From Aureimonas sp. Leaf324 (GTDB lineage: Bacteria; Pseudomonadota; Alphaproteobacteria; Rhizobiales; Rhizobiaceae), in NCBI RefSeq assembly GCF_001423245.1, contig NZ_LMOH01000012.1, forward strand, positions 126,518-190,517: a stretch of DNA of 64,000 nt, in the 5' to 3' direction. The notes beneath the pieces are model-generated. The model did no database searches. It had not been told where the DNA came from and saw nothing but the letters and a program-made list of their open reading frames with translations. Of the stretch, positions 25,172-44,185 are shown piece after piece. How positions within the stretch are numbered: position 1 is the first letter of the stretch; each line of letters opens with the position of its first letter. The translations under genes and the position numbers were made by a program.

Positions 25172-27016
25172 TCAGCGAGCAGGAGGCACGAACCCCTTGC
25201 GATCGCCATCCGCTCCGTTCGGACCGGCGAACCATTCGTAATGCGTGGCGTCCTGCACCGCGACCGGCGGCTCCTTGTTCTCGACGACGATGATCTGGAG
25301 GTCCCGGCTCGTCTTCGGTATCGACGACCAGAACCCATCTTCCAGACCGGGGTCCAGACTATCGGATGCCTCCACGTCCCTGCCTCGCTTGTAGGAAGTC
25401 AGGGGGGAGTCGATGATCACGAACCCCGGATGCGGGCGCTTGTTCTGCGCGCAATAGCGGAGAAGCCCGACGACGAAGGCCGAGTAGAGAAGCGCTCGAA
25501 CACCCTTGCCGTGCGACTGACGCGCCTGACCGTCGACGACGATGTCGTATGTCTGCTGATCGAACTCGACACGGGGCTCCTCCGAGGGCCAGCCCCACTC
25601 CTTGAGCGTAGCCTCCACCTGGCGGCAGAACGCCAGCAGGGCCGCCGACGGCAGCGGCTCCCATTCCTTGGCCCTAGGTCGTCCGTCCCTTGCGGCGTCC
25701 TCGATCTCCTGCCGAAGCTGGACGAGGTTGTCGAACTGGTCCAGGTCGTTGCGCGTCGCCTCGAGCCGCAGCCGTCTCTCGGAGAGCGCGTCGAGCCGGT
25801 CGACGTCCCCCTTTAGCCTCGGTGCGAGATCGGATCGGAGCCTGCCCTCGATCTCCTCCAACCTGGTGGCGCACTCGTCGACCGTGGCGACATGTACCGC
25901 CCGCCGGCCTTCGAGATCCGAGATCGCGGCCTGGAGGTCGGTCCGCTGTGCCAGGATCTTCGCCGCTTCGGACTTGGCCGCGTCGTAGATTCCCGAGCTC
26001 CTCTCCTCGGCGACATGGCGATGGTCGGCCGTCATCGGCTGATCGCAGAGCGGACAGGTCACCTCCTGCAGCTGGTCGAAGTACTGGGCGCCCTCCGCGA
26101 CGAAATCCAGTCTCTTCAGATCCGAGTCGTACCGCTGCTGGAGGAGACCGTATCGGACCCGCAACTCGTCGATGGCGATGATCTGAGAGTTCGCGTGATC
26201 CAGGCTCTCGGCGGCCGTAGACCGTTCCGACTGCAATTCCTCGCGCTCCAGCTCCATGGTCTGGAGCCGCATTCGCGTCGTCTCCATCGCCGCTTCGAGC
26301 TTTTCCACGGAGTCCAGCGACTCGTCCCGGCGAACGCCTTCCAACCGCTTCTCCAACGGGGCCATCAGTTCCTCGATGACACCCAGCTTCGCGGCGAGGC
26401 GGGCCTTCACGATCTCGCGCTTCTCCTCCGCGACGACCCCCGAATCGTCCTTCCCGGTCAGGAGGAACGAGAACATCCGCTTGCGCATGGTGTCCCCGAA
26501 CCCGGTCTCTCCGAGCACGGGCGACTGCTCGGCGATGACGGAGATCTCGTCGACGACGAAGATCGGGAACAGGTTTCGGACGGTGAGCCGTTGGACCTTC
26601 CCCTGGCTGTTCGTCCTGAGGCGGGCCTCGGGAATACCTGCGAACGGGAAGATCACCGAGGTGACGTCGTCGCTCTGCGACGTGCCACGACGTCTTGGGG
26701 CGATCGTCCGGTTCGAACCGGAAGCCCGTTCGATCGGGAGATCGTAGACCTCGAGGTTACCGCCTGAGAGATCCCGCCTCAAGGTCAACGCCTCTCCGGT
26801 GCCATTACCGAATTCGACGAAGAGGGTCGAATACGGCTCGGCCTCGGGGACGCGCTTGCGCATGATATCCGAGCCCAGGATGTAGTCGAGGCAGTGAAGT
26901 ACGAAGCTCTTGCCGGTATCCGATGCGCCGGCGAGGATGTTGCCTCCGACATCGAAGCGAACCTCGGCGTCGTCCACGGAGGATCCGCGAAGCAGGATGC
27001 GGCGGACGTGCATCAT
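25172..27016 (-). CDS. ABC-three-component system ATPase (SMC/Rad50-like, Lamassu-type)
   Basis: SMC-like ATPase of about 614 aa. Walker A is GASDTGKS (residues 30-37); two long coiled-coil arms flank a zinc-hook motif CPLC; the signature-side region has QSHGKGVRALLYSAF; Walker B is GFVIIDSPLTSY. This pattern matches the ATPase of ABC-three-component conflict systems, the wider family to which Lamassu belongs. It is the last gene of a three-gene operon with the middle component and nuclease effector. The start is one of two adjacent ATGs, two bases after the preceding stop. Confidence 0.82.
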   Translation of the reverse strand: MMHVRRILLRGSSVDDAEVRFDVGGNILAGASDTGKSFVLHCLDYILGSDIMRKRVPEAEPYSTLFVEFGNGTGEALTLRRDLSGGNLEVYDLPIERASGSNRTIAPRRRGTSQSDDVTSVIFPFAGIPEARLRTNSQGKVQRLTVRNLFPIFVVDEISVIAEQSPVLGETGFGDTMRKRMFSFLLTGKDDSGVVAEEKREIVKARLAAKLGVIEELMAPLEKRLEGVRRDESLDSVEKLEAAMETTRMRLQTMELEREELQSERSTAAESLDHANSQIIAIDELRVRYGLLQQRYDSDLKRLDFVAEGAQYFDQLQEVTCPLCDQPMTADHRHVAEERSSGIYDAAKSEAAKILAQRTDLQAAISDLEGRRAVHVATVDECATRLEEIEGRLRSDLAPRLKGDVDRLDALSERRLRLEATRNDLDQFDNLVQLRQEIEDAARDGRPRAKEWEPLPSAALLAFCRQVEATLKEWGWPSEEPRVEFDQQTYDIVVDGQARQSHGKGVRALLYSAFVVGLLRYCAQNKRPHPGFVIIDSPLTSYKRGRDVEASDSLDPGLEDGFWSSIPKTSRDLQIIVVENKEPPVAVQDATHYEWFAGPNGADGDRKGFVPPAR

Positions 27017-27018
27017 CG

Positions 27019-27528
27019 TCAGAGAACCAACTTCTCGAGGGATCCGACACGATTGAACTCGGCGCCCCACTTCCCGATACGCTCCGACATGAAGTCGTCG
27101 AGGGCGCGATCGTCGAGCTCCCCGAACGTGGCGATCGTCCACCGTGCCCGTATGGCCAGCTGTCTCGCGTAGTCGCTCGCGAGCAGGGCTAGGAACGCGG
27201 CGGTGAGGGCGTTCGAGGCGTAGGTGATGCCGCTGTGGTCGAAGCGCTTGTCGATCAGCTCACGCGAGAACATGCGGTCGAGCCCCATGCTCAGCGCTTC
27301 GCGCTTCACAAGCAGCTCCCCCCCGCGGAACGGCACGGCGGGATGCAGGCTCTCGGGGCCATCCGCATCGCCGGAATGAACCAGGAGATAGTCGAACGAG
27401 ACGAGGCGTTGAAGGTCGGCGCTCCGTCCCTCGTTGGCGTTGAGGATGAACAACATCCTCAGTCCATGCTCGAGCGGGGAGTTGAAGATGCGTCCCTCGC
27501 GCCTCGGTGAGGCGGATGCGGGCGTCAT
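27019..27528 (-). CDS. ABC-three-component system middle component
   Basis: A 169-aa protein with the middle-component pattern: IFNSPLEHGLRMLFILNA at the start, LQRLVSFDYLLVHSGD, and a C-terminal segment EFNRVGSLEKLVL. Middle components connect the ABC ATPase to the effector. The start at 27528 overlaps the stop of the effector gene (ATGA), and its own stop lies two bases before the ATPase start. Function is inferred from family and context. Confidence 0.78.
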   Translation of the reverse strand: MTPASASPRREGRIFNSPLEHGLRMLFILNANEGRSADLQRLVSFDYLLVHSGDADGPESLHPAVPFRGGELLVKREALSMGLDRMFSRELIDKRFDHSGITYASNALTAAFLALLASDYARQLAIRARWTIATFGELDDRALDDFMSERIGKWGAEFNRVGSLEKLVL

Positions 27529-28640
27529 CGATCGATCCATTCGACGATACCGTCGTTGGCGAGCTGATGACACATCCCCTCACGGTCGTTGGCCATGACG
27601 TGAGGGTTGAGCATGTGCCCGGTCAGCTGCAGGCTCTGCGCCGCCTGTACCGTCGCTCCCAGACGTGCGAGGCCGTTGGCCGCCGGTCCCGTGTAGGTGA
27701 AGTAGAGACCGTCGGCGAACTCCTGCAGGAGGGTGTCGAAGAAGGCCTCGTCGAGCATGCTGTCGCGAGCGAGCTCCCGGAGATTCTCCGCGCAGTAGAA
27801 CGTGAGACGCGATCGCCGGAACAGGGCGGCCTCCTTCGGGAACGGCTGCAGTGCCACCTCGTCTACGACGGGCTCGCCGACGGCCTCTCCGATGGCCTCC
27901 AACAGTCGGCCGACGTAGACGGTCTCGGTCGGGGCGACGGCCGATGGCGGAACTTTCGGAACGACGCGCTCGATCAACGGCAGGCCGAACACCGTGTGGT
28001 GGTAGTTCGTCTGGGCATGCTCCTGCAGCAGCTCGAGCGGCTGCTTCGCCCTGAAGATCGAGAAGTCGAACTTCCTGACATGCTCCTCGAGCGACGGCTC
28101 CAGGATCACCTCGTCCTTCATGATCTCGTACCGACAGCGCTTGTCCCAGTCGGCGACGATCCTCCTCGCCATGCCGGCAGGATCGTCGAGGGTATCCTGG
28201 AGGTCCGACGTCACGCCCAAGTGAGTCACGAACCAGTATTCAGACGGCGCTCGGTAATCGCCTCGATAGGTGTAGAACAGGACCTTGGCGATCTCGGCCG
28301 CCGCCGAACCCCAGCCGAGCCGAGTCTGGTAGTGCTTGCATTGATAGAGGCTCCAGCGCCGCGGGTCGGCTGCTGTCGGATCGAGCCACACGACGACGTC
28401 GCGGCCCTTGTCTCCGGACCCGCCGCGTTGCTGGACCTGATCGACGCCTGGCACCTTCCGTGCCAGGTACCCCGTGGCCCATTCCAGCGTGAAACGCTCG
28501 AAGTCGAGCGGGCTGAATTGAGCGAGGCGGTCGAGCGGTTTCACGGGCAACCCGACGCCCAGGCCCAGGAGGCGAGCATTCGCGTTCGGCCAAGGCGACG
28601 GACGATCGATATCCGTCGTAGATGCTGGATCGATATTCAT
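27525..28640 (-). CDS. ABC-three-component effector: Mrr-like PD-(D/E)xK nuclease with system-specific C-terminal domain
   Basis: A 371-aa first gene of the operon. Residues 43-115 have the Mrr-type restriction-endonuclease fold: helix FERFTLEWATGYL with E53, D81 in GSGDKGRDVVVW, and the QxK motif YQCKHY (Q100, K102). The C-terminal half carries the association domain of ABC-three-component proteins (FRRSRLTFYCAENLRELARD and LLQEFADGLYFTYTG). It probably degrades DNA when the ATPase senses foreign ends or structures. All catalytic residues are in place. Confidence 0.8.
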   Translation of the reverse strand: MNIDPASTTDIDRPSPWPNANARLLGLGVGLPVKPLDRLAQFSPLDFERFTLEWATGYLARKVPGVDQVQQRGGSGDKGRDVVVWLDPTAADPRRWSLYQCKHYQTRLGWGSAAAEIAKVLFYTYRGDYRAPSEYWFVTHLGVTSDLQDTLDDPAGMARRIVADWDKRCRYEIMKDEVILEPSLEEHVRKFDFSIFRAKQPLELLQEHAQTNYHHTVFGLPLIERVVPKVPPSAVAPTETVYVGRLLEAIGEAVGEPVVDEVALQPFPKEAALFRRSRLTFYCAENLRELARDSMLDEAFFDTLLQEFADGLYFTYTGPAANGLARLGATVQAAQSLQLTGHMLNPHVMANDREGMCHQLANDGIVEWIDR

Positions 28641-29859: not shown

Positions 29860-30453
29860 CTACCGGGAAGCCGAGTGCACGAGAATTCGGGCGATCTGAT
29901 CGCGAATGGCGACGGAACCGCTTGCGCTCAAGAGCTGGACCCGGTCGCCCCCCAATCTGCCTAGTCTCTCCCTAGCCGTCTTCGAGAACCCCTTCTTGCT
30001 CACCAGGATGATCTCGTCGGCCTTCCTGGCATCGAAGTACCTACGCAGCAGTCTGCGATCTATCGAGTCACCGTCGAGCTTCGCCTCCACGAGGTAGGTT
30101 CTGCCGTTCGCCCGCAGCACGAAGTCAGCCTGGTGTGCTCCCTCAAGCTCCTCCACCGTCGTCACCTCGTCGGAAGTCCGTTGCAGATCCCGGATCGCGG
30201 CCAGCACTTGCTTCTCGAAGTCCAGGTACTCGGACAACGCCATGCGGAGCTCGGCCTCGTCGCCGCCTCGCAGATATTCGGTCCTACCGTTCGGCAGCTT
30301 GATCCTGACTGGCCAACGCCTTCGCAGCCAGCCGTGCCGAAAGAGGTATCCGAGGAGCGGAAACGTCGCGACCGCCAAGGCGCCGGTCGCCAGCGGTACG
30401 GCCAAGACCTCCAGGAACGGGCTTCCGACGACGTCGGGGAACGAGAAGCTCAT
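29860..30453 (-). CDS. Membrane-anchored PD-(D/E)xK nuclease-like protein
   Basis: A 197-aa protein with one N-terminal membrane helix (about residues 14-36), a basic stop-transfer region, a short helical linker, then a restriction-endonuclease-like domain: E80, D110 in HQADFVLRANG, and E123-A-K125 in YLVEAKLD. The D...E-x-K triad suggests an active nuclease tethered to the inner membrane. The start at 30453 has a strong AAGGAG site and overlaps the stop of the preceding membrane gene (ATGA), so the two form a coupled pair. This is probably a small defence module. Confidence 0.65.
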   Translation of the reverse strand: MSFSFPDVVGSPFLEVLAVPLATGALAVATFPLLGYLFRHGWLRRRWPVRIKLPNGRTEYLRGGDEAELRMALSEYLDFEKQVLAAIRDLQRTSDEVTTVEELEGAHQADFVLRANGRTYLVEAKLDGDSIDRRLLRRYFDARKADEIILVSKKGFSKTARERLGRLGGDRVQLLSASGSVAIRDQIARILVHSASR

Positions 30454-30785
30454 TTCCACTCCTTGGCGTAGGTCAAGGCAACGCTGATGACATATAGCGC
30501 AACGCCTATGCAGATGTGGATCGGAATTCCGTGGAACGCGACGGCAGGATTCTTGAGGGAGTAGGACACCGCCACACCCCACGCCGCCATGAAGATCACC
30601 AGCATGATGAACACGAAGTAGACTAAACCTTGATCGTCGTAGGTCGCTCCTGGCCCCCCGCCGCCGGACGGCGCGATCGTGCGGGTCCTCACCCTCAGAA
30701 GAGGAACTAGAAACGACAATCCTGCAACGCAGAACGTCGGGCCGATGAAGTCGATCAGGTTTTGTCCAAGCAGGTATCTACACAC
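30450..30785 (-). CDS. Small membrane protein with three predicted helices, coupled to the nuclease
   Basis: About 111 aa with hydrophobic segments IGPTFCVAGLSFLVPLL, YFVFIMLVIFMAAWGVAVSY and ICIGVALYVISVALTY. There is no ATG close to the first helix; a GTG at 30785 next to a GGAGG is a likely start, though a longer frame is open upstream. Its stop is inside the start of the membrane nuclease gene. It may be a membrane partner or immunity protein for that nuclease. No family recognised. Confidence 0.5.
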   Translation of the reverse strand: MCRYLLGQNLIDFIGPTFCVAGLSFLVPLLRVRTRTIAPSGGGGPGATYDDQGLVYFVFIMLVIFMAAWGVAVSYSLKNPAVAFHGIPIHICIGVALYVISVALTYAKEWK

Positions 30786-31490: not shown

Positions 31491-31781
31491 ATGGTTAGCA
31501 TCAATTATAGTTCCCCGCAGGGGGACCGCAACGTCGTGCGCCCGCATCGCGGGAGCATGGTTAACGTCGCGGACTTCCTGTCGGCCGGTCAGGCCGCCCT
31601 GCTCGAGCGCATCCCCGAGACCGGGGACATTCTGGACCTGGACGCGGCCGTCGCGATCCTGGCGCGCACCGAGCCGCACGCCTATGGGGCGCTGGTGACG
31701 TTGATGAACAAGGGCATCGTCTCCGCGGACTTCGTCGACACCTCCTACGTCGATCCCGAGATCGTCATCCGCAGGCTCTGA
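31491..31781 (+). CDS. Small protein of unknown function, first gene of the FtsH-like/UvrD-like operon
   Basis: A 96-aa acidic soluble protein: NVADFLSAGQAALLERIPET, then DILDLDAAVAILARTEPHAY and a tail VDTSYVDPEIVIRRL. No domain recognised. It lies 85 bases ahead of the next small gene on the same strand. The ATG at 31491 is weakly supported; an internal ATG at 31557, close to GGGAG, would give a 74-aa form. Co-direction with three further genes suggests an accessory or adaptor role, which is inference only. Confidence 0.6.
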   Translation: MVSINYSSPQGDRNVVRPHRGSMVNVADFLSAGQAALLERIPETGDILDLDAAVAILARTEPHAYGALVTLMNKGIVSADFVDTSYVDPEIVIRRL

Positions 31782-31866
31782 GCCCGACGGAATTGCGCCG
31801 GGACCGGTATCTCCGGCCCGTCTGACCCAAGTTCTCGCCGAGCCTCGCGTAGGCCGAAGGATCCTC

Positions 31867-32154
31867 ATGTTTTCCCGTACCACCACCCCGCCGGATGCAC
31901 TGCATCCCGGCGACCGCCCCCGCACGCCCGCTAACGCCCCGTGCGTCGTCCACCTCGATTCCGCCGTGGCCGTCGGCGCCGCGATCCGGGCGGCCCGTCG
32001 CTCCGCCGACGCGCAGACCCGCGCCGCGATCCGTACCTCGCTCGTCGGCTTCGCGACCGCCGGCTGCCCCGCCGCCGCGCTGGTTCTCGCCTGGTTCGAT
32101 CGCGACGGCGCGATCTGCGACGACGCGTCCACGGGAGGCGTCGATGGCCGCTAG
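31867..32154 (+). CDS. Small helical protein of unknown function, second gene of the operon
   Basis: A 95-aa protein with an Ala-rich helical centre (VHLDSAVAVGAAIRAARRSA, then FATAGCPAAALVLAWFDRDG). A GAAGGA site precedes the ATG. Its last eleven bases overlap the start of the AAA+ protease gene, implying translational coupling. No family recognised; it may be a substrate adaptor or antitoxin-like partner of the protease. Confidence 0.6.
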   Translation: MFSRTTTPPDALHPGDRPRTPANAPCVVHLDSAVAVGAAIRAARRSADAQTRAAIRTSLVGFATAGCPAAALVLAWFDRDGAICDDASTGGVDGR

Positions 32155-34123
32155 GCGCTCGGCTCCCACCGCCCTCACCTCCTTCGACGATCTGCGCGTC
32201 GACTTCGGCCCGGAGGAGTGCCCCCTGACCGTCGAGGAACAGCGCGAGGCGGCCATCGGCTTCCTCGCGCCCAGCCGCTTCGCGATCCACCGCGAGTTCG
32301 TCCGCAGCTTCTCCGACGCGCAGATCGACCGCATTCGCCAGGATTCGCCGCTCGTGATCGTCGTGACGACGCCGATCGACGGCGGCCTCCTCGAGCCCCC
32401 GTTGCGCTGTTCCATCGACTGGCTGCTGGCGGGCGACGAGGTGGACCGGAAGGTCGTCTTCGTTCACCTCTCCGGTGATCCCTTGATCGACGGACAGCTG
32501 AACGCGGAGGCGCTGCTTACGCACATCGCGAAGGGCCGTGTCCTGATCGTCACGACGACCGGAGACGCGGCGTTCTCGTTCCCGCCCTTAGTCGACTTGT
32601 CGATTACGCTCTCGTTGCCCGGTTCGGATGCCCTGCGCGACACGTTCACCCGCCGTTACGGCTCGGTCGACATCGGGGGCGATATTCCGTCGTGGCCTCC
32701 CACTCTCACCCATGCGACTTTCGACGTAGCCTGCGCCAAGGGCGTTTCTGCCTCGGAAGCCTGGGCGCTCGCGATGGATCTGATGTGCATCGAGAAGCCG
32801 GGGCCGGAGGAACCAGGGGCGAAGGCGGCGGCGACGGCGCTGCCCCCTCGACCGCTGGAGGAGCTTCGCGGTTACGGCTCGGCCATGTCATGGGCGACCG
32901 ATCTCGTCAGAGACGTCGCCGATTTCAGGGCTGGTCGCATCGCCTGGACCGACGTTTCGCCCGGCGCGCTCATGGTCGGCCCGCCCGGTACGGGCAAGTC
33001 GACCTTCGCGGGATCGGTCGCGGCGAGCGCTTCCCTTCATCTTGTGTCGACGTCGTTCTCCGCTTGGCAGAGCTCCGGCTCCGGACATCTCGGGGACGTC
33101 ACCAAGTCCATCCAGTCGGCGTTCGCCGAGGCCCGCCGTTCGGCACCCTCGCTGGTCTTCATCGACGAGTTGGGCAGCCTTCCCGCCCGAGGCACCGAGG
33201 GGCGATACGACGCCTACTGGTCGACGGTCGTCGACTGCCTACTGGCGGAGTTGGATGGCGGTGACGCTCGTGCTGGCTTCACCGTGCTCGCGGCGTGCAA
33301 CGACGCGACCCGCCTCGATCCCGCCTTGCTACGATCCGGACGTCTCGAGCAGCGCCTCGTGATCGGACTCCCCGATGCATCGGATCTCGCCGCGATCCTG
33401 GCGCAGCACCTCGGCGGCGCGCTCTCGTCCGCCGAGCTGACGCCGATCGCGCAGATCCTGGCGGGGTCGGCTAGCGGCGCCGATGCGGCCGCCGTCGCTC
33501 GCGAGGCGCGTCGCTCGGCCAGACGCCAAGGGCGCGCTGTGACGCTGGCGGACGTCGAGCTGGCCGCCCTTCCCGTCGACGACCTGTCGGATGAGGTACG
33601 GCGCCGTATCGCGGTCCACGAGTCCGGACACTTGGTCGTCGCGCTGGCCTGCGGCTCCGTGCCGTCGTCGATGTCGGCCGGGGTGGCGGGAACCGGGCCG
33701 AAGGTCCTGCTCGGGCGTCCGGGAGGACCAATCCCGCTCGCATCCGACCTGGACGCGCATATCGTCGTCCTCCTAGCCGGTCGAGCCGCCGAGATGCTTG
33801 TCCTCGGCTGTTCGAGCACCGGCTCCGGTGGAGGCGACGACAGCGACCTGGCTGCCGCGACCGATGTGGCTGGACGCATGATCGGCCGCCTCGGCTTCTG
33901 CGGCACGCTCGCCTACGAGCCGTCGGTGGAGCGCGCCCGGATCGAACCAATTCTCCAGGCCGCGGCCGGTAGGGCGCACGCGTTGCTCATCCGTCACCGC
34001 GACGCGCTCGATGCCTTCGTGACGGCCCTGCTCGCCCGGCGCCACCTCGATCGCGCCGCCATCCTCGAGATCGCGTCGGGCTTCGGGCTGCCGGCCTCCT
34101 CCGCGCAGGAGGCCGGCCGATGA
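32144..34123 (+). CDS. Soluble FtsH-like AAA+ ATPase with M41 zinc peptidase domain
   Basis: A 659-aa protein lacking the membrane helices of true FtsH. About 270 unfamiliar N-terminal residues precede an AAA+ module: Walker A GPPGTGKS (279-286), Walker B SLVFIDELG, and sensor/arginine finger DPALLRSGRLEQRL. A peptidase M41 domain follows, with zinc motif H492-ESG-H496 and third ligand D568 in GDDSDLAAATDVA. Both ATPase and protease look active, so it should unfold and degrade proteins in the cytosol. The start at 32144 follows a GGGAGG site, and the stop overlaps the UvrD-like gene (ATGA). Recognition is by motif; the N-terminal region, which would select substrates, is unknown. Confidence 0.8.
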   Translation: MAARRSAPTALTSFDDLRVDFGPEECPLTVEEQREAAIGFLAPSRFAIHREFVRSFSDAQIDRIRQDSPLVIVVTTPIDGGLLEPPLRCSIDWLLAGDEVDRKVVFVHLSGDPLIDGQLNAEALLTHIAKGRVLIVTTTGDAAFSFPPLVDLSITLSLPGSDALRDTFTRRYGSVDIGGDIPSWPPTLTHATFDVACAKGVSASEAWALAMDLMCIEKPGPEEPGAKAAATALPPRPLEELRGYGSAMSWATDLVRDVADFRAGRIAWTDVSPGALMVGPPGTGKSTFAGSVAASASLHLVSTSFSAWQSSGSGHLGDVTKSIQSAFAEARRSAPSLVFIDELGSLPARGTEGRYDAYWSTVVDCLLAELDGGDARAGFTVLAACNDATRLDPALLRSGRLEQRLVIGLPDASDLAAILAQHLGGALSSAELTPIAQILAGSASGADAAAVAREARRSARRQGRAVTLADVELAALPVDDLSDEVRRRIAVHESGHLVVALACGSVPSSMSAGVAGTGPKVLLGRPGGPIPLASDLDAHIVVLLAGRAAEMLVLGCSSTGSGGGDDSDLAAATDVAGRMIGRLGFCGTLAYEPSVERARIEPILQAAAGRAHALLIRHRDALDAFVTALLARRHLDRAAILEIASGFGLPASSAQEAGR

Positions 34124-36147
34124 GCCGCGACGATTTCGAGCGCGACCTGCCGAGCCCCCGTGCGCTCGACCGCACGCAGGAGGCCGCTGCCTCTTTCGGC
34201 ATCTCCGGTCCCGGCCCGCACATCGCGGGGCCGTTGATGGTCCTGGGCGGGCCCGGCACCGGAAAGAAGACCGTCCTCGTCGGTCGCATCGAGCGCCTCG
34301 TCGTGGCCCGCGCCGACCCCGCCCGCTTCCTCGTGGTCGTGCCCTCGCCGGATGCAGCGCTGCAGCTGACGACGTGGATCCGCGCTGCGGTGCCGGCGAT
34401 CGCCTCCGATCAGGTCATGACCTTTCACTCGCTCGCCTTGCGGATCCTGCGCTCGCACGCGCGTCGCCTCGGTCTCTCTCCGGATTTCGCGATCCTCGAT
34501 AGGACGGACGCGATCGCCGTGATGACCCCGGTGCGTGACGGCATGTCAGAGGCCACCTCGGAGCCGCCGCTTCCGCCCGCCGACCTTTGCCTCGACATCT
34601 TGTCGGAGGCCACGGCGAGATCGGTAGACCTGGGCGGGCTACTCGCGGCGTATCCGACGGGCCTGCTGCCGACGGAAACTCGCTTCGACGCCCTCTTCGA
34701 TCGCTATCGTGAGGAGAAGGGGCGCCAACACTCGCTCGATGTCGACGACCTCCTCACCCGCCTCGCGAGTGCACTCACGGATCCGGACTTCGCGGAACTC
34801 GTCTCCTCGTGCTGGGATCATGTCCTCGTCTCCGGCTACGAGGACCTGTCCCCTCTTCAGGCCACCATCCTTGACGCATTCCGCCCCCACGGGCGCGGCC
34901 TGACCGTCTTCGCCGACGACGCCCAGGCGATCGACGTTCACGCCGGCGGGACGGCGCAGATCGCCGCGTTCGCGGGCCGTTACGACCCCGCCGCTACCGT
35001 TATGCGGCTGGAGACCTCCTACCGCTGCTCGCCGCCGATCCTGCGGCTCGCGGCGGCCATACTTCGTGATGGTGCGTGCATGCCGCGGCCGCTGGCCGGC
35101 TTCCATGCGTGGCCGGAGCCGCGCATCCTTTTCGTGGACGACGACGCCGCGCAGGCGCGGCTCGTGGCGGGTGAGCTCGAGGCGGCTCGGGCGGCTGGCG
35201 AGGACCTTTGCCGTCGAGCGATCCTCTACCGATCGCCGGGCGACTCCGTCCTAGTCGAGGCCGAGTTCATTCGACGCCGCATCCCGTATCTCAGGCTGGA
35301 TGGATCGCCCTGGACCGCCCGAGCTCACGTCCGCGGCTTTCTGTCGATCCTGCGCTATGCGGTGAGCCCGGCGGCTCGTCTGTCGGGGCTGCGCGCCCTG
35401 CAGATGATGCCGGGTATCGACCCGACCGCGGCGAAGCGTATCCTCGAGGCCCTAGCCGGTCGCCCCCTTCACGAACTCGACCCGTCTTCGCCGATACTCG
35501 TGGGCGCCGACCTTCCCGACCTCGGCGAGTTCGCCGAGAAGCTGGCGACGATCGCCGCGTCGGCCTCGGCGGTGTGGGCCTGCTATGTGGCGGCCGAGTT
35601 GTATCGTCCTCTCGCCGAACGCCGCTACGTCGACGCGGACGATCGAATGGCCGATGTCGAGGCGCTCCTGACCGCTTCCGCGACGGTGCCCGAACTCCGT
35701 CCCTGGCTGGACGAGCTCGCGATCGACCCCATCGCTCCCGGCAATCCAGTAATGGCGGCACCGGGGCAGGTCACGCTCTCGACGATCCAAATGGCGAGGG
35801 ATCGGGCGTGGGAAAGCGTCACGGTGTTGTCGTGCACGGAGGGTTCGATCCCGTCGGTTCATGCCGAAAGCGCGGTAGAGTTGGAGCAGGAGCGCCACGC
35901 GTTGTACCTGGCGGTCACGAGGGCAGCCGGAAGACTGACCATCCTCGTCCCGCGGTGGAGCAGTGGATCGGGGCGACGCAGGGCGCGACGTGCATCGCGC
36001 TTCCTCGAAGGCCACGTCGCGAAGACGACAGTACAGTCGGCGATCCTCGAGGGGACGGATCCGAAGGACGCCATTTCGTCGATCGTTCGGCAGATCCACG
36101 CCGGCCGGCATGAAAAGGATGATGGCGGAGGCGGCATCCCCGACTAG
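34120..36147 (+). CDS. UvrD/Rep-family superfamily 1 protein with degenerate Walker motifs
   Basis: A 675-aa protein with the UvrD layout: Q-motif-like ALDRTQEAAA, motif III-like TVFADDAQAID, motif IV LETSYRCSPPIL and motif VI LYLAVTRAAGRL. Two key sites are changed. Walker A is GGPGTGKK, with lysine 50 where serine/threonine binds magnesium. The DE of motif II is S238-G239 in VLVSGYEDLSPLQ. ATP hydrolysis is therefore doubtful, and the protein may bind DNA or nucleotide without unwinding. It is coupled by ATGA overlap to the FtsH-like protease, implying that the two act together. Confidence 0.78.
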   Translation: MSRDDFERDLPSPRALDRTQEAAASFGISGPGPHIAGPLMVLGGPGTGKKTVLVGRIERLVVARADPARFLVVVPSPDAALQLTTWIRAAVPAIASDQVMTFHSLALRILRSHARRLGLSPDFAILDRTDAIAVMTPVRDGMSEATSEPPLPPADLCLDILSEATARSVDLGGLLAAYPTGLLPTETRFDALFDRYREEKGRQHSLDVDDLLTRLASALTDPDFAELVSSCWDHVLVSGYEDLSPLQATILDAFRPHGRGLTVFADDAQAIDVHAGGTAQIAAFAGRYDPAATVMRLETSYRCSPPILRLAAAILRDGACMPRPLAGFHAWPEPRILFVDDDAAQARLVAGELEAARAAGEDLCRRAILYRSPGDSVLVEAEFIRRRIPYLRLDGSPWTARAHVRGFLSILRYAVSPAARLSGLRALQMMPGIDPTAAKRILEALAGRPLHELDPSSPILVGADLPDLGEFAEKLATIAASASAVWACYVAAELYRPLAERRYVDADDRMADVEALLTASATVPELRPWLDELAIDPIAPGNPVMAAPGQVTLSTIQMARDRAWESVTVLSCTEGSIPSVHAESAVELEQERHALYLAVTRAAGRLTILVPRWSSGSGRRRARRASRFLEGHVAKTTVQSAILEGTDPKDAISSIVRQIHAGRHEKDDGGGGIPD

Positions 36148-37066: not shown

Positions 37067-37816
37067 ATGCGTAGATACATCCGCGCCCCCCGCACCCACC
37101 GCCCGCCGCCCGCCGTCTACGGGCCGCCGGCCATGCCCATGCCCATCGTCGTTCCCGACGAGGCCTCCTTCGTCCCCGTCGAGCCGACCAGAGCGGAGCG
37201 CAAGTTCTCGATGACGAGCACCGCCTCCCATCGCGGCTCGATCGTCGACGACCGCACCGGGCGGCAGCACGTCTACGAGAGTCGCTTCGAGGAACTCGTC
37301 CTCCTCCTGGCCATGGCATCCGAGGACGTCGTCGCGATCGACGAGCAGGTACGGATTGACTGGGTCGACGACGACGGCGAGATCCACGACTACTTCATCG
37401 ATCTGCGACTGACGTTGAGGAACGGTCGCCGCGTCGGCGTGGCCGTGAAGCCCGCGGACCGGGTGGAGAGCTCCCGCATCGAGGACGTCCATCGCCGCGT
37501 CCTGGCACGACACGGAACGAGCGTCGCGGACGCCTTCGAGGTGCGTACCGAGAGGGACATCCATCCGGACGACGTCGCGGATGCGCGCCTCGTCATCCAC
37601 GCCCGTCGAATGCCGGACCCGATGGCGGACGATAGGCTCGATCGCCTGATCCCATCGCTCGTCGGCTGGTGCCGTCTCTCGGAGCTCGCCGACGCCATCG
37701 CGTCCGACGGCATCGGCTTCTGCTCCGTGGTCCGTGCCATCGCCGCCCGCCGCCTCGAGGTGCGGGATGGCGAGCGCATCGCCTCGACCTGCTTCGTCCG
37801 CCTCCGCCACTCCTGA
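37067..37816 (+). CDS. tnsA: TnsA-like transposon endonuclease
   Basis: A 249-aa protein, first gene of a Tn7-like module. The central restriction-endonuclease fold has E71 and E75 (YESRFEELVLLL), D112 (HDYFIDLRL) and K128 in VAVKP; Tn7 TnsA uses E, D and Q-x-K, so the glutamine is alanine here. TnsA nicks the 5' ends of the element and permits cut-and-paste movement with TnsB. A very strong ribosome site (AAGGAGGG) precedes the ATG. It is followed by tnsB, 25 bases downstream. Confidence 0.72.
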   Translation: MRRYIRAPRTHRPPPAVYGPPAMPMPIVVPDEASFVPVEPTRAERKFSMTSTASHRGSIVDDRTGRQHVYESRFEELVLLLAMASEDVVAIDEQVRIDWVDDDGEIHDYFIDLRLTLRNGRRVGVAVKPADRVESSRIEDVHRRVLARHGTSVADAFEVRTERDIHPDDVADARLVIHARRMPDPMADDRLDRLIPSLVGWCRLSELADAIASDGIGFCSVVRAIAARRLEVRDGERIASTCFVRLRHS

Positions 37817-37841
37817 TCCCCCTCGCAAAGGAGAACTCTCC

Positions 37842-40181
37842 ATGCCGCCTTTCGCCCATTCGCATTCCCCCCGACCGAGCCCGACGACCTGGTCCTTTCC
37901 GCCCGGCCACGTCTTCCGGATCGACGGGCACGACTTCGCCCACGTCGCCAGCGATGCACTGATGCTGCGTATGCGATCGCTCGATACGGGGATCGTGCAG
38001 ACGCTCCCGCAGACTGCGTTCGACAGGCTGGTCGGCGAGGATCGCGTGGACCCCAGGATCCCCGAGAACGATCCCTCCCGTCAGTCTCTGATCATCGACC
38101 TCCCCGATGCGCTGACCCTCTCCGACCTGCCGGAGAAGGAACGCAACACGCTCATCGCCTACACCGAGCTGTGCCGACGGGTCGTCGAGAAGCACAAGAA
38201 GAAGGAGCTGCCCTATACCCGGACGGCGTTGCGCAAGGCGCTCCCTGCGATCATGGCGGAGGTCAACGACGAACTCAGCCTCGATGCGTCGGCGCGTGCG
38301 TACGGCGGCGCGAACAGGTCCTCGAAGGTCGACAAGACGCGCCGACTGGCCGCACGCACGTCCCGGCAGATCCTGGTCGTCCCCGCGCCGTCGACGGTGC
38401 TCGGCTACATCGCGATCCTTGAGGCCACGGGCTGGGACCCGATGCAGCTGCGGGATCGTCGGAGCCGTCGTCGCTCCCCAAGGGGTCCCAACCTCGCCGA
38501 TCCTCGCGCCCTCGAGATCATGACGGCTTGGCGGGACGCCTACCTGGATAGGAGCCGTCCCACGGCGAAGACGCTCTATCGCCTGATGAAGGGTGGACCC
38601 GACTTCGAGGGAGCGACCGACATCGTCGGCGGTACGCGGCCGTCTCGTTCCAGGCGTACGCGTCTTCCCCACGAGCGCGTCGCGAAGCTGCCGACGTTCT
38701 TCGCCGAGAACGAGCTCCGAGCGAAGACGGGGCTTCCTCCCCTCACCCCGCCCTCGCTGTCGACGTTCGAACGCGACATCCGCAAGTTGCCCGAGTACGA
38801 CAAGGTTCTTGCCCGTTACGGACCGAGCAAGGCACGACGGGACTTCAAGGTCGCCGGTCGCCATGAACTCGCCATGCGTCCCGGGGAACTCGTCGGCTAC
38901 GATTCGTGGCGAATCCAGAGCCTGAGCAAGCTTCTGCCGCGCAAGGCATTCGACGGGTTGTCCGCGGACGTTCGCACGGCCGTCGAGAAATTGCGCCTCA
39001 GCCTTACCCTCGGCATCGATGCCGCGACGCGGGTCGTGGTCGGAGTTCGCCTCTCGCTCGATCCCAACGCGGATACGACCGTGCGCGCCCTGCGCATGGC
39101 GTTCGTGGACAAGACGGAGATCGCGAGGGCGGCGGGTTGCGTATCGACCTGGGCGCACATGTGTTCGGTTAGCACGTTCGCCATGGACGGCGGGCCCGAG
39201 AACATCGCGGGCATCGTCCAGGCGGGCATCCGGGACGTAGGATCTCAGGTCGCCTACGGTAAGGCCGGTGTGCCCGACGAGCGCGGCTGGTTGGAGGCTG
39301 TGTTCCGCACGACCGACATCCAGCTCTTGCCGCTCTTTCAGGGCAGAACCTTCTCGGGCGTCAACGCCAAGGGGGAAATCAAGCCCGAGCAAGTCGCGAA
39401 CTTGGTCATTCCCGTCCTGCAGCCTGCGCTGATCCGCTACCTCGTAGACGTCTACAACAACCAACCCCACTCCGGGCTCGGCGGTCGAACGCCGAACGAC
39501 GCCTGGATCGAGGCATCCCGCCTGTACGGCGTTCAGCCGCCGCCCTCGCGTGCTCGTCTACGTGCCGCGTTCGGCATGACGTTCGAGCGACGCATCCAGA
39601 ACACCGGGATCTCCCTGGTCGGTCTCGAATTCGCGAACGACGAAGTCGCCGAGATCCGGAGGCTCGTCGGACAGGAGAAGGTTGAGGTCCGCTTGGACGT
39701 CGACAACCTCGATGAGATCTCGGCACGCGCCAAGCGTCCCGGTTCCCCCTGGGTGACCGTTCCTTGCCGGACGGCACTCGGCAAGGTCTCGTTGGAGGAT
39801 TGGTTCGACGCCGCCACGCATATTCGGCGCCAGCACGCAGACGTCTCCGCCCTGAGGGAGTCGGTCGTCCAGACCGCGCTGGCGGACATCCGGAACCTCG
39901 GCATCCGCTCCGCACTGGATGCCGGCATCGGACCGTCGACGATGACCCGTGACCAGATCGAGGAGGAAGCCGCGAAGCTCTTCCGCCAGTTCCGCATCGT
40001 CCCGGCGGAGGAGCGTGGGCGGACCCTCGATTTCCGGTCGGACGCCGACTCCGTCGATGACATGGCGTCGATCGATGCTGCCGAGGTGCAGGCGCCGACC
40101 TCGACGTCCAAGGACGAACCGATGCCCACGACCCGTCGCGGTCGCCGGACCTTCTCGATCAAGACCGGAGACGACGCGTGA
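37842..40181 (+). CDS. tnsB: TnsB/TniA-like DDE transposase (Mu-type integrase)
   Basis: A 779-aa transposase with N-terminal DNA-binding segments, an rve core and a Mu-C-like beta barrel. The catalytic triad is D354 (VGYDSWRI), D449 (FAMDGGPEN) and E485 (RGWLEAVFRT); the D-to-E spacing of 35 residues is exactly that of retroviral-type integrases. The tail is acidic then basic (RRGRRTFSIK), as expected for the TnsC-interacting end. The start at 37842 follows AAAGGAG. Its stop overlaps the tnsC start (GTGA). Confidence 0.88.
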   Translation: MPPFAHSHSPRPSPTTWSFPPGHVFRIDGHDFAHVASDALMLRMRSLDTGIVQTLPQTAFDRLVGEDRVDPRIPENDPSRQSLIIDLPDALTLSDLPEKERNTLIAYTELCRRVVEKHKKKELPYTRTALRKALPAIMAEVNDELSLDASARAYGGANRSSKVDKTRRLAARTSRQILVVPAPSTVLGYIAILEATGWDPMQLRDRRSRRRSPRGPNLADPRALEIMTAWRDAYLDRSRPTAKTLYRLMKGGPDFEGATDIVGGTRPSRSRRTRLPHERVAKLPTFFAENELRAKTGLPPLTPPSLSTFERDIRKLPEYDKVLARYGPSKARRDFKVAGRHELAMRPGELVGYDSWRIQSLSKLLPRKAFDGLSADVRTAVEKLRLSLTLGIDAATRVVVGVRLSLDPNADTTVRALRMAFVDKTEIARAAGCVSTWAHMCSVSTFAMDGGPENIAGIVQAGIRDVGSQVAYGKAGVPDERGWLEAVFRTTDIQLLPLFQGRTFSGVNAKGEIKPEQVANLVIPVLQPALIRYLVDVYNNQPHSGLGGRTPNDAWIEASRLYGVQPPPSRARLRAAFGMTFERRIQNTGISLVGLEFANDEVAEIRRLVGQEKVEVRLDVDNLDEISARAKRPGSPWVTVPCRTALGKVSLEDWFDAATHIRRQHADVSALRESVVQTALADIRNLGIRSALDAGIGPSTMTRDQIEEEAAKLFRQFRIVPAEERGRTLDFRSDADSVDDMASIDAAEVQAPTSTSKDEPMPTTRRGRRTFSIKTGDDA

Positions 40182-41248
40182 GCGAGACCAACAGCGAGCG
40201 GGACCGCTTCGTCGCCCGCATCCTCGCGAACCAGAGCCCGAAGCGCCAGGCGCAGACCGCGGCGATGACGGCGATGCGTAAGGTCTATGTTCCCAACAGC
40301 AACGACGCCGAGCTGAACGAAGCGATCGACAAGCTTCTCGACTCCGTAGCCGTGGAGTTGAGCCTTCCGCACGAGCGTCTGTCCGGGGACATGACGGAAC
40401 GGGGCGGACGCGCGCTCCTGGTCGAGGGTCTTGCCGGAGTGGGAAAGTCGGTGACGTCTCAGAAGGTCCTCGAGGCTAGGCCGGAGTTCGCGCCCGACGA
40501 GAATGGGCGGTCGACCCTCCTGAGGTTCGTGGCTCCCAGTCCGTTCACTGTTGCGGCTCTCGGAAACATGTTGACGGACAGGCTCGCCTACCGAAGCACC
40601 CGGTTCATCCGCGAGAGCAAGGTCTGGCCGATGGTGCATCGCCTATTACCGGAGCAAGGCGTCCGCATCCTGGCGATGGACGAGGCTCAGCACAGCGATC
40701 AGATCGAGAAGGCCGATTCCGTCAAGACGATCGAGAACACGTTTAAACGCCTTATGCAGAATTCCGAGTGGCCGGTGTGGTGGATCTTCGTCGGCCTGCC
40801 GGAGATCCGGAGGTTCTTCCGCGACGACGACTCCATGCGGCGGCGCGTGACGGTCGTCGAGTTCCAGACGCTGTCGTTCGAGCAGGATGTCCAGGTCGTG
40901 AGGGACACGGTCGCCCTGATCCTGCAGGCGGTACCGGGCATCGATGGTTCGGAGCTCTGCACGGACGAGTTCGTCCACAAGCTCATCCACGCCACCTTCG
41001 GCGCCTTCGGCATCCTCATCGAGTTCATCCAGGACGCGGTCTGCGAGTGCATCGGCTCGGGCGAGACCACGCTGACGGCGATGCACTTCGCCGATGTCTA
41101 CGCGGCGAGAACGGGTGCGCCGGACGAGGATAACGTTTTCCTCGCGACCCGCTTCACGATGATCAACGTCGGCAGCGCGCTCTACGTCGACGACGTTGAC
41201 GACCGTGGCATTCCCACCGGTAAGCGCAAGCCCAAGGAACGCCGCTGA
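40178..41248 (+). CDS. tnsC: TnsC/TniB-like AAA+ transposition regulator
   Basis: A 356-aa AAA+ ATPase with Walker A GLAGVGKS (residues 84-91) and Walker B RILAMDEAQHSD. It forms filaments on target DNA, links TniQ to the transposase and confers target immunity. The start is a GTG within the tnsB stop, and its own stop shares one base with the tniQ start. All ATPase motifs are intact. Confidence 0.88.
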   Translation: MSETNSERDRFVARILANQSPKRQAQTAAMTAMRKVYVPNSNDAELNEAIDKLLDSVAVELSLPHERLSGDMTERGGRALLVEGLAGVGKSVTSQKVLEARPEFAPDENGRSTLLRFVAPSPFTVAALGNMLTDRLAYRSTRFIRESKVWPMVHRLLPEQGVRILAMDEAQHSDQIEKADSVKTIENTFKRLMQNSEWPVWWIFVGLPEIRRFFRDDDSMRRRVTVVEFQTLSFEQDVQVVRDTVALILQAVPGIDGSELCTDEFVHKLIHATFGAFGILIEFIQDAVCECIGSGETTLTAMHFADVYAARTGAPDEDNVFLATRFTMINVGSALYVDDVDDRGIPTGKRKPKERR

Positions 41249-43068
41249 TGCTGCCGTTCGAACTCGACGTCGGAGAAGCCGAGACGCCGTCCGACTACCT
41301 CTCGCGTCGCTCGGTCCTCGCCTGCAGGGACGAATCCGCGGAGTTCTGCCTGGACTTCGGGCTGGACTTTCAGGGCATCGTCGATGGCGTTCCCGCGGCG
41401 ATCGAGACGTTGGCGTCGATGGCGGGGATCGAGGCGGCCACCCTGCACGAGAACGCGTTCGTCCGTGTCGGATCGTCCCGGTCGTTCGTTCATCGCGGCG
41501 AGAGACTGGGGCGCCACCACTTGATGCGTGACCGGATCCGCGTGTGTCCGAGATGCATGGCCGAGGACCTGGAGCGTTTGGGGTGCCGGCCGGCGGCCCG
41601 TCCCCACCGTAGGGCGGCGTGGATCGTCGAGGCGATCCGTTGCTGCGATCTGCATGGGGTCGGTCTCGTCGCGCTTCCCTTCGATCCGGAAACCGATCGC
41701 CGCCACGACACGTCTCCTCGGTTTGCGGAAGCGATCCCCCGGCTCCCTCAGCTGCTGGCCAAGTGCCGCGAGCGACCGGTTCGGGCTCTCGAAGGCTACG
41801 TCCGTTCTCGTCTGCGCGGGGTCGCCGCTTCCGGCTGGATCGACGCCCTGCCGTTGTACGTCGTGATCGATCTCTCCTTCCTCGTGGGTATCGTCGAGAC
41901 TCTCGGGCCCGGTATCGGTGGACGCGAGCTGACGGGCAACGAACGCGTTGGTTGCGAGGAGGTGGGCATGGGGATCATCGAGGGTGGCGAAGCGTCGTTC
42001 CGAGAGTTCCTCGAACGCCGCCAGCGGAAGTTCCACGATACGAGAACCGCTTGGGGTCCGAAGTCGATGTTCGGGCGCCTCTATGAACGGCTCGCGCACG
42101 AGACGGACGATGACGCCTACGAACCTGTGCGAGAGTTGATGATGGATCACATGAACGCATCGCTACCGGTGGGGCCGGCCGATAGGGCCTTTGGCCGCCC
42201 CTTCCCGGAGCGAAAGGTCCAGTCGATCTACGAGGCCGCACGCGAGAACCGCCTCCATCCTAAACGGCTCCGCACCTTCCTCGGCGAGGTTGGTCTCATC
42301 GACCGGGGTCAGAAGAAGTCGGACGATCGCACGCTGTTCTCCGCGGATCGAGCTGCGCCTCTACTCCGCGGCTTGCGCGACGCCATGGATCTGCAGGGGG
42401 TCGCGAAGTATCTTGGCATCCCTCGGCCACACGTGCGACCGCTCATCGAGATGAAGTACGTGAAGGTGATCCCCGAGTCCGAGAGCGACAAATTCCGGAC
42501 GTGGTCGATCGAGCGGCGTGAGGCGGATGCGTTCATGACGCGTATGCTGGACCAGGCGGATCGGACCATCGCGCTCGATGGGCTCTATCATCTGCCGGCG
42601 GCCGCGAAGAGGACGTGCCGCTCCACCGGTGAGATCCTGCAGCTGCTGTTCGGTGGCAAGCTGACGAGAGTTGGCATCGATCCGGACGTGAGAGGATACC
42701 TATCCGTCCTCGTAGATCCCGAGGAGATCAAGACGCTGTTGGCGCCGCGAGCCGAAGGGATCGTCACGTTGAGAGCGGTCGAACAAGAGTTGAGAACCTC
42801 GACGGTAGTCGTCAAGAAACTGGTCGATCGCGGGCATCTGAGGGCGAGGACGATCGTCAACCCGGTGATGCGACGCCCTCAGACGATCGTCGATCGAGAC
42901 GAACTCGACCAGTTCAAGCGGAGCTACGTTTCGCTCAATACCTTGGCCGACGATCGCGGACGACACTTCCGTCGTCTCGCAAGAGAACTAAGAGAGGCGG
43001 GAATCGCACCGATCGACGATCCAAAAGTTCTCGAGATAACGCTCTACCGACGCATCGACGTGATCTGA
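41248..43068 (+). CDS. tniQ: TniQ/TnsD-family target-selection protein
   Basis: A 606-aa protein whose N-terminal third shows the TniQ pattern: GRHHLMRDRIRVCPRCMAED, then RRAAWIVEAIRCCDLHGVGL, with cysteines and histidine of the zinc knuckle. The C-terminal two thirds contain several helix-turn-helix-like stretches (LQGVAKYLGIPRPHVRPLIE, TVVVKKLVDRGHLRART). TniQ proteins choose the target, by direct DNA binding in TnsD-like long forms. The length fits a TnsD-like site-specific targeter, so a fixed attachment site is likely. Last gene of the module; a terminator follows. Confidence 0.85.
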   Translation: MLPFELDVGEAETPSDYLSRRSVLACRDESAEFCLDFGLDFQGIVDGVPAAIETLASMAGIEAATLHENAFVRVGSSRSFVHRGERLGRHHLMRDRIRVCPRCMAEDLERLGCRPAARPHRRAAWIVEAIRCCDLHGVGLVALPFDPETDRRHDTSPRFAEAIPRLPQLLAKCRERPVRALEGYVRSRLRGVAASGWIDALPLYVVIDLSFLVGIVETLGPGIGGRELTGNERVGCEEVGMGIIEGGEASFREFLERRQRKFHDTRTAWGPKSMFGRLYERLAHETDDDAYEPVRELMMDHMNASLPVGPADRAFGRPFPERKVQSIYEAARENRLHPKRLRTFLGEVGLIDRGQKKSDDRTLFSADRAAPLLRGLRDAMDLQGVAKYLGIPRPHVRPLIEMKYVKVIPESESDKFRTWSIERREADAFMTRMLDQADRTIALDGLYHLPAAAKRTCRSTGEILQLLFGGKLTRVGIDPDVRGYLSVLVDPEEIKTLLAPRAEGIVTLRAVEQELRTSTVVVKKLVDRGHLRARTIVNPVMRRPQTIVDRDELDQFKRSYVSLNTLADDRGRHFRRLARELREAGIAPIDDPKVLEITLYRRIDVI

Positions 43069-43093: not shown

Positions 43094-43126
43094 AAAGCCC
43101 CCGTCCGTATCGGACGGGGGCTTTTT
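43094..43126 (+). terminator. Factor-independent terminator after tniQ
   Basis: A fourteen-base-pair perfect stem starting AAAGCCCCCGTCCG, a TAT loop, and the complementary arm running into five T. It lies 26 bases after the tniQ stop and ends the tnsA-tnsB-tnsC-tniQ operon. Confidence 0.9.
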
Positions 43127-43504: not shown

Positions 43505-44185
43505 TCAGCTTCGGACGCGTCGCGACGATCGCGCCTCCTTCAACCCTGCCATGACCTCCGCGTCAGTCAGTTGGTGAAAGCCCTCGTAGGCGGATCCAAC
43601 CCCTTCGAAGTCATCCACGGGGTGTAGACAAACGATGGCATCGACCCGTCGAGCGATCAAACCGATCCTGTCACGGGGAGCTACCGGCACGGCAACGTAG
43701 ATTCCGACTGCGCCGCGTTGCGAGAGCCAGGACACGGCAGCCAGCATCGTCGCCCCTGTCGCGATGCCGTCGTCCACCACGATCGCAACATGCCCCGCCG
43801 GATCGATGGGTTTGGAGCCGATGCGGTAGATGGACCGACGACGCTCGTTCTCCTGCACGGCCTCGGCGGCCGCACGTTCGATGTAGGCATCGTCTGCCCC
43901 GGATCGAAGCCGAAAATCGTGATCGACGAATATATGCGACTCGGCACCGTCGACGACGGCCCCGAGCGCCACCTCGGGGTCCCCCGGCGTCCCGATCTTG
44001 CGAACCGGGATCAGTTCCAGGGGCGCATGCAGATCACGGGCGATCTCAGCGGCGACGGGCACGCCCCCACGTGGCAATGCGTAGACGATCGGCTTCGCGA
44101 TGTGCATCCGGCTCAGTCTTGCGGCGAGCTTGCGGCCCGCCTCGCCTCTATCGGCGAACATCGCATGGCCGCCAGAAACGGTCAT
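43505..44185 (-). CDS. Phosphoribosyltransferase-family protein
   Basis: A 226-aa type I phosphoribosyltransferase fold. The PRPP-binding loop is VAIVVDDGIATGATM; ALPRGGVPVAAEIARDL and VRKIGTPGDPEVALGAV are characteristic of the stand-alone family found beside PHA, acetate-kinase and universal-stress genes. The substrate is unknown. The start at 44185 follows AGGAGGAG. It is the last gene of the minus-strand stress operon, 87 bases after ackA. Confidence 0.85.
   Translation of the reverse strand: MTVSGGHAMFADRGEAGRKLAARLSRMHIAKPIVYALPRGGVPVAAEIARDLHAPLELIPVRKIGTPGDPEVALGAVVDGAESHIFVDHDFRLRSGADDAYIERAAAEAVQENERRRSIYRIGSKPIDPAGHVAIVVDDGIATGATMLAAVSWLSQRGAVGIYVAVPVAPRDRIGLIARRVDAIVCLHPVDDFEGVGSAYEGFHQLTDAEVMAGLKEARSSRRVRS

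Follow-up and report, generated by a model that had tools for sequence, protein, structure and literature searches.

A Tn7-like-linked locus of Aureimonas sp. Leaf324 encodes a soluble AAA+/M41 protease beside partners that resemble inactivated DNA enzymes

The window analysed here is a stretch of 64,000 nucleotides from contig NZ_LMOH01000012.1 of Aureimonas sp. Leaf324. Within it, four plus-strand genes encode two small proteins, here called sm1 and sm2, an AAA+/M41 protease, and a homologue of the helicase UvrD (Table 1). The genes are real and lie where a preliminary description of this DNA had placed them, in the same tight arrangement: sm2 and the protease gene overlap by 11 bp, the protease and UvrD-like genes overlap by 4 bp, and a gap of 85 bp separates sm1 from sm2. 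GC3 is 0.82-0.90 in the four genes compared with 0.77-0.86 in the transposon genes, a similarity that fits coding sequence. Downstream of the four genes, and in the same direction, TnsA, TnsB, TnsC and TniQ follow in the Tn7-like order.

Table 1. Features of the four-gene locus and of the adjoining Tn7-like module, in window positions.
Feature	Position	Strand	Remarks
sm1	31491..31781	+	96 aa; similar to the C-terminal domain of dead TnsA homologues that precede the protease elsewhere
sm2	31867..32154	+	95 aa; small protein, no recognised fold; 11 bp overlap with protease gene
AAA+/M41 (FtsH-type) soluble protease	32144..34123	+	659 aa; ATPase and active-site motifs intact
UvrD-like pseudo-helicase	34120..36147	+	675 aa; degraded motifs I, Ia, II, III, V
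TnsA of Tn7-like module	37067..37816	+	Glu, Asp, Lys in catalytic columns; NCBIfam E=6e-6, under the model's cut-off
TnsB-like transposase	37734..40181	+	D, D, E present; start codon uncertain
TnsC/TniB-like AAA+ ATPase	40178..41248	+	profile matches
TniQ/TnsD-like protein	41248..43068	+	606 aa; profile matches
Terminator-like hairpin, then T run	43094..43124	+	3' of tniQ
Phosphoribosyltransferase gene	43505..44185	-	3' end faces tniQ; similarity to same-genus genome starts there

The phosphoribosyltransferase gene is the likely right edge of the island: it points its 3' end at tniQ, and resemblance to a genome of the same genus (G020) starts at this gene. That genome retains the right flank from the gene onward, and most of the segment beyond it corresponds to a different contig of the window's genome. 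Transposon end repeats were sought at the window locus and none was convincing; no empty site was found. A PDB sequence search with the window TnsA gave one chance match (E=0.38). Further along, at 54.9-60.0 kb, the window contains long GGCAACGGCAACGG-type repeat arrays, which encode Asn/Gly-rich repeats in large ORFs.

The defence setting reported in the preliminary description is also apparent. An ABC-three-component-like pair, comprising a weak AAA_13/SMC-like protein and a CTD6 protein, is encoded on the minus strand at 25172-28640, and near it are a KAP NTPase (20739-23057) and an Mrr_cat protein (29860-30582). Some relatives of the protease likewise sit among defence genes. Of two copies on Rhizobium plasmids, one is found beside S8 peptidase/ATPase and KwaB-like genes and the other beside CBASS genes. 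A TerB_N/TerB_C protein with an HTH is encoded in the window at 17450-20581 (minus strand), and a 42% identical relative in another genus lies directly beside the module at locus L074 (5446-7542), which hints that this protein travels with these elements.

The protease matches the Pfam families AAA (E=9e-25) and Peptidase_M41 (E=4.3e-12). Its GPPGTGK (K285) and HESGH (H492) motifs and D568 are all invariant in an alignment of 11 sequences, in agreement with the first reading of its catalytic sites as intact. That it lacks membrane helices is likewise upheld, as the most hydrophobic 19-residue stretch has a mean of only 1.68 and falls inside the M41 domain, at 538. Compared to the FtsH equivalog model TIGR01241, the protein has the AAA+ and M41 catalytic motifs but not the N-terminal membrane helices, and it scores 139 bits against a curated cut-off of 600. 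A separate FtsH-like gene in the window's genome encodes a protein 31% identical to the protease. Relatives of the protease occur in 75 of 394 genomes of the host's taxonomic family (E<=1e-60), in 3 of 384 other genomes of the class (E<=1e-62), and in 25 of 72,556 plasmid records (E<=1e-30), with Rhizobium foremost. A search of viral contigs with the protease alignment gave at least 23 loci, with identity of 32% or less among the matches listed, and 15 matches in phage records all had less than 60% identity and at most 47% query coverage.

Three further relatives of the protease, 42% identical, are encoded in the window's own genome (G000) at C17:7499-8650, C30:509-1600 and C12:605307-606578. 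At locus L076, a second protease-like protein, which lacks both Walker A and HExxH (6978-8354), is found directly upstream of an intact protease. We do not claim a degenerate N-terminal AAA domain for the protease, as the match was short (E=0.0097, probability 4%); L083, L169, L078 and L072 were left out of the alignment used in that comparison. A single-sequence structure model was uninformative, with a mean pLDDT of 39.3.

The product of the fourth gene had been described as a superfamily 1 helicase homologue, and the UvrD fold is indeed supported by profile matches to PF00580 (103 bits, cut-off 23; E=3e-29) and UvrD_C (50 bits, cut-off 25.6). What had gone unremarked is that its helicase motifs are lost. 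When the protein is compared with 12 full-length relatives, a thirteenth that is split in two frames, and the protein of L186, we see that the relatives keep the UvrD/PcrA catalytic motifs I, II, III and V and that the window protein does not. Lost are the Walker A Thr, motif Ia, the DExx box (VDEYQD to VSGYED), the Gly of motif III and the HSAKG of motif V; retained are the Walker A Lys, 'TFHS', 'YR' and 'TRA'. Of 314 columns that do not vary among 13 relatives, the window protein matches 141. Its reading frame of 675 codons is open and has a GC3 of 0.815. Judged from these residues, ATP hydrolysis by the pseudo-helicase is very unlikely, and some residual nucleotide or DNA binding may persist. 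The helicase-like sensor envisaged in the preliminary description is therefore possible only as a sensor that lacks the motifs for ATP hydrolysis. Members of the helicase family are common, occurring in 131 of 394 genomes of the taxonomic family, with 38% identity or less to the window protein among the matches listed. Close relatives of the pseudo-helicase were sought in GTDB species genomes using six peptide patterns, a weak test that gave one locus at 25% identity, judged irrelevant.

The gene neighbourhoods of 62 protease loci were compared, namely the window and 61 loci of relatives, which were picked by protease score only, with the exception of L056, entered as a helicase locus. A UvrD-profile match is found at four of these loci, the window included. 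At the other three it is 0.7 to 3 kb from the protease gene, on the opposite strand (L056), upstream (L186), or downstream and only 21% identical to the window protein (L166), and none of the three has a pseudo-UvrD. The window is thus a single case, and the only one of the 62 loci with a UvrD-like gene directly downstream of the protease gene. This tells against the proposed coupling of protease and helicase: the two large genes do not keep company elsewhere, the very outcome that the preliminary description had named as counting against the pair. Nor is there a conserved four-gene set across the loci. The constant element is the soluble AAA+/M41 protease, and the partners vary; the recurring unit is the protease with TnsA-derived or small partners, not the protease with a helicase.

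Among the 62 loci, profile matches were obtained for DUF6634 (23), sm2 (22, one of them weak), a family here called c4 (18), metallophosphoesterase (15), sm1 (7) and DnaQ-like proteins (6). A core of sm1, sm2 and protease is present at seven loci, comprising the window, L070, L071, L152, L076, L085, and L166, where c4 lies in between. The window, L070, L071 and L152 belong to one protease group (support 87); L083 was dropped from the protease tree and its counts, leaving 61 rows. Within this group the slot downstream of the protease is occupied by a dead UvrD in the window, a dead DnaQ in both L070 and L071, and DUF6634 in L152. The catalytic acidic residues of the DnaQ-like proteins are lost in those two of six and kept in L076, L078, L085 and L187. 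A DnaQ- or UvrD-like gene is directly downstream at 5 of 7 sm1 loci, compared to 1 of 16 loci with a dead TnsA homologue, described below (p=0.003, ignoring relatedness). The metallophosphoesterase partners keep their motifs, as judged by eye, and one of them matches the PADLOC defence candidate PDC-S10 (E=1.5e-13); the metallophosphoesterase gene overlaps the protease gene by 4 bp at 3 of the 12 plasmid loci read.

The c4 proteins form a 340-aa family that precedes sm2 at its 18 loci (L069, L081 and others; L076 lacks it), and two of them, when scanned, gave no Pfam family above cut-off. By eye they have a D...(E/D)xK-like motif, of which the Lys is kept in 13 of 18 and lost in 5. As this motif was seen by eye only, and with its Lys in 13 of 18 proteins, we do not assign c4 to the PD-(D/E)XK nucleases, and its homology to TnsA is unsupported (probability 0.25% in both directions). 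The sm2 protein has no family match in Pfam, NCBIfam or PADLOC. At L071 a TniQ gene follows the DnaQ-like gene (4756-6684), and no TnsA, TnsB or TnsC match is found in the stretch read.

Two control sets were examined. None of 20 FtsH loci from the same taxonomic family has any profiled partner or Tns gene. Tns genes, sm1, sm2, c4, DUF6634 and metallophosphoesterase are likewise absent from all 12 loci of helicase homologues, of which L059 alone carries a DnaQ-like gene; L056 was omitted from this set because it carries a protease. Because the tested loci themselves supplied the sequences for the sm1, sm2, DUF6634, c4 and metallophosphoesterase profiles, the zeros for these families count for less than those for TnsB, TnsC and TniQ.

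Directly before the protease, 16 of the 62 loci have a TnsA homologue that is apparently catalytically dead. It aligns with the transposon TnsA over 170 columns (hhalign E=4e-11) and forms one clade (SH-aLRT 99 in a quick, unrooted tree). In the columns of Glu, Asp and Lys, which we take from Tn7 TnsA to be the catalytic residues, neither the Glu nor the Lys was seen in any of 18 dead TnsA sequences (14 aligned and 4 from plasmids, with L084 cut at the Glu). The Asp is retained in all 18, and three (L189, L224 and L226) have Arg at the Lys column. Transposon TnsA proteins have Glu and Asp in 10 of 10 cases, with Lys in 7 and Arg in 3. The loci L187 (22 bits) and L158 (over-long ORF) were excluded from the residue alignment, yet are counted among the 16. 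When partial forms are included, a dead or partial TnsA precedes the protease at 23 of 61 loci. In the reverse direction, the dead-TnsA profile matches 55 of 394 sampled genomes of the taxonomic family, and the protease is adjacent on the same strand at 26 of 30 fetched loci, although the search alignment was built from genes preceding the protease and so favours adjacency. At L273, one of the four loci without an adjacent protease, the contig ends a short way into the flank. The 26 include L285, where the dead-TnsA profile and a weak protease profile (E=2.9e-6) fall on one ORF (1411-2559, minus strand), a possible fusion or frame artefact.

The sm1 protein has 96 residues and no TnsA nuclease domain bearing Glu, Asp and Lys. 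Its profile aligns with the C-terminal domain of dead TnsA at E=3.7e-6 (probability 87%), scoring 36 where 50 column shuffles never exceeded 19.6; the value had been E=3.6e-5 in an earlier set of 13 comparisons. Against transposon TnsA the values are E=6e-4 and a probability of 28%. In a search of 14,631 ORFs with sm1, the first four non-member matches were dead TnsA proteins, weak at E 0.12 to 0.69, and the reverse single-profile search placed 4 of 7 sm1 proteins among chance matches (E 1.5 to 9.3, not significant). From these comparisons it is likely, though not certain, that sm1 is related to the C-terminal domain of dead TnsA, like a leftover of that protein.

The position beside Tn7-like genes, already remarked upon for the window, recurs elsewhere. 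In total, 11 of the 62 protease loci lie upstream of a co-directional Tn7-like module (TnsB and/or TniQ), compared to 0 of 20 FtsH and 0 of 12 helicase controls. At the other 51 loci, the stretch read, which in some cases stops at a contig end, shows neither TnsB nor TniQ in the same direction; L158, with a TniQ-profile match on the other strand, and L189, where the Tns genes point away, were not scored as linked. A TnsA-derived upstream gene is present at 10 of 11 Tn7-linked loci, the remaining one, L078, being cut at a contig end, versus 13 of 50 others (Fisher p=1e-4, ignoring relatedness). A relatedness check by independent pairs came out 3.9 to 1.0 in favour of the link, which is not significant. 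On a Bosea plasmid, the protease, metallophosphoesterase, DUF6634 and TnsA-TnsB-TnsC-TniQ genes all run in one direction.

Scans of Pfam, NCBIfam and PADLOC match single domains, and none of these libraries names the set as a known system, in line with the first description. FtsH shares the AAA+ and M41 domains, HExxH and third Asp ligand, but the protease studied here differs in its lack of membrane helices, its mobile and patchy distribution, and the residues around the FtsH pore-loop position. Its AAA+ domain also matches IetA (PADLOC E=4.9e-16) of IetAS, a pair of ATPase and protease. IetS is an S8 serine protease, whereas none of our four proteins has an S8 domain, and M41 is here fused to the ATPase. 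The UvrD-like protein matches GajB of Gabija (PADLOC E=2.3e-34), but no OLD/TOPRIM nuclease (GajA) is found in the four genes or the scanned neighbours, and the UvrD-like protein lacks helicase motifs. A further likeness is to ClpX, which acts on Mu complexes. It likewise raises CAST integration and is thought, according to the accessible part of PMC12326709, to help disassemble the post-transposition complex, and this proposed disassembly by an AAA+ machine is what the two would share. ClpX differs in being a host protein without an M41 domain and without dead TnsA partners, and protease action on Tns complexes is here a proposal only. TnsF, as presented in the accessible part of PMC10293859, is an enzyme without catalytic activity that a Tn7-like element has co-opted; unlike the proteins studied here, it descends from a tyrosine recombinase and acts together with TniQ. 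FtsH does not appear in the accessible main text of that paper, and a word search of the accessible main text of a survey of Tn7-like cargo (PMC8649781) gave no occurrence of protease, peptidase or FtsH. No description of the pairing of this protease with a dead TnsA was found in the open-access literature, among the matches listed.

We tentatively propose, at somewhat less than even confidence, that an unnamed module is present here in a form linked to a Tn7-like element, and that its soluble AAA+/M41 protease uses adaptors, namely DNA enzymes that are catalytically dead or pieces of such enzymes, which probably guide it to transposition or replication complexes. By its residues the protease is intact. 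The upstream partner appears to be TnsA-derived, as a dead TnsA in many loci and as the C-terminal domain alone here, and the downstream slot holds a dead UvrD here and, in sister loci, a DnaQ-like exonuclease that is alive or dead by its residues. The partners resemble DNA-processing enzymes without active sites, a likeness that hints at a role in steering the protease to DNA-bound protein machines. The dead enzymes would bind DNA-bound complexes without acting on them, and would pass one of the parts on to the protease ring, to be unfolded or degraded. The TnsA C-terminal domain, common to both kinds of upstream partner, would be the likely dock on the protease, and is proposed as such because Tn7 TnsA meets TnsC via its N-terminal region (accessible part of PMC2918618), which is absent from sm1. 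By analogy with ClpX and CAST, the targets could be transposition complexes of the element or its rivals, or replication/repair complexes at the insertion site. A more specific version seems to us rather unlikely: that mobile elements encode a new form of targeted proteolysis in which dead copies of TnsA, DnaQ and UvrD are interchangeable adaptors, each docking the protease on the matching live complex and so dismantling the element's own or a rival's transposition and replication machinery.

Taken together, the constant protease, the TnsA-derived small partner, and the swapped and sometimes dead DNA enzyme point to adaptors that guide the unfolding or proteolysis of complexes bound to DNA. 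The loss of motifs in the pseudo-UvrD alongside its retained coding composition argues for this proposal, as do the lack of Glu and Lys in the dead TnsA clade, the pairing with TnsA in both directions (23/61 and 26/30), the TnsA-derived partner at 10 of 11 Tn7-linked loci, the DnaQ- or UvrD-like gene at 5 of 7 sm1 loci, the absence of Tns genes from both control sets, and the precedents of ClpX and of a dead enzyme in a Tn7-like element. Against it, four of the six DnaQ-like partners keep their catalytic residues, as the metallophosphoesterases do their motifs by eye, so that dead partners are not universal; Arg likewise replaces Lys in 3 of 10 transposon TnsA proteins; in most loci (51/62) the stretch read is without a TnsB or TniQ gene running the same way; the Tn7 link is not significant by independent pairs; sm1 lacks the N-terminal region by which Tn7 TnsA binds TnsC, which tells against simple docking on TnsC; and the pseudo-UvrD is known from the window alone.

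The main rival to the adaptor model is defence against phages or plasmids, wherein the dead enzymes would serve as decoys for, or as sensors of, invader proteins directed against the enzymes of replication and repair, binding would activate the protease, and Tn7-like elements and plasmids would carry the module as cargo. We consider this possible, if doubtful. The ABC-3C, KAP and Mrr-type neighbours in the window, the settings of the two Rhizobium plasmid copies, the resemblance of the metallophosphoesterase partner to PDC-S10, and the majority of loci that are not Tn7-linked are all consistent with it. However, neighbourhood is weak evidence here, as mobile islands collect many cargo genes, and the TnsA-derived partners at 10 of 11 Tn7-linked loci are a better fit to a role in transposition. 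Such a role could also be that of a target selector, with the pseudo-UvrD (elsewhere a DnaQ-like protein) steering Tn7-like insertion to replication or repair structures in the manner of TnsE, and the protease as separate cargo. Dead enzymes do select targets in Tn7-like elements, as in TnsF, and TnsE is thought to be active at replication forks (both from the accessible part of PMC10293859); moreover, four of the six DnaQ-like loci (L070, L071, L078 and L085) are Tn7-linked, as is the window. We nonetheless think target selection unlikely, as the pseudo-UvrD gene shares 4 bp with the protease gene and lies about 0.9 kb from tnsA. Moreover, L076 and L187 have a DnaQ-like partner, but the stretch read there shows no Tn7 module in the same direction.

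The four genes could instead be adjacent by chance in a mobile island, with the UvrD-like gene decaying, and the one-time occurrence of a pseudo-UvrD beside the protease fits this. Chance adjacency is nevertheless quite improbable, given that sm1, sm2 and the protease occur together at seven of 62 loci, that the 675-codon frame has stayed open with a GC3 of 0.815, and that gene ends overlap. Least probable of all, and to our minds barely credible, is a housekeeping FtsH paralogue engaged in general protein turnover: the AAA+ and M41 domains are common to both, but the spread of the protease is patchy (75/394 family genomes and 3/384 others of the class) and includes plasmids, the genome has a separate FtsH-like gene whose product is 31% identical, and the protease lacks a membrane helix.

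Dead TnsA is present in 55 of 394 sampled genomes of the family, with the protease adjacent at 26 of 30 fetched loci. The row of dead TnsA, protease and metallophosphoesterase at plasmid loci L224, L226 and L227, where the last two genes overlap by 4 bp, is a second pairing worth separate study. If the protease does target Tns complexes, as the adaptor model would have it, then it would parallel, in element-linked form, the ClpX step by which a CRISPR-associated transposase is helped in human cells (accessible part of PMC12326709). A general question also becomes testable, namely whether dead enzymes may serve as ready-made protease adaptors.
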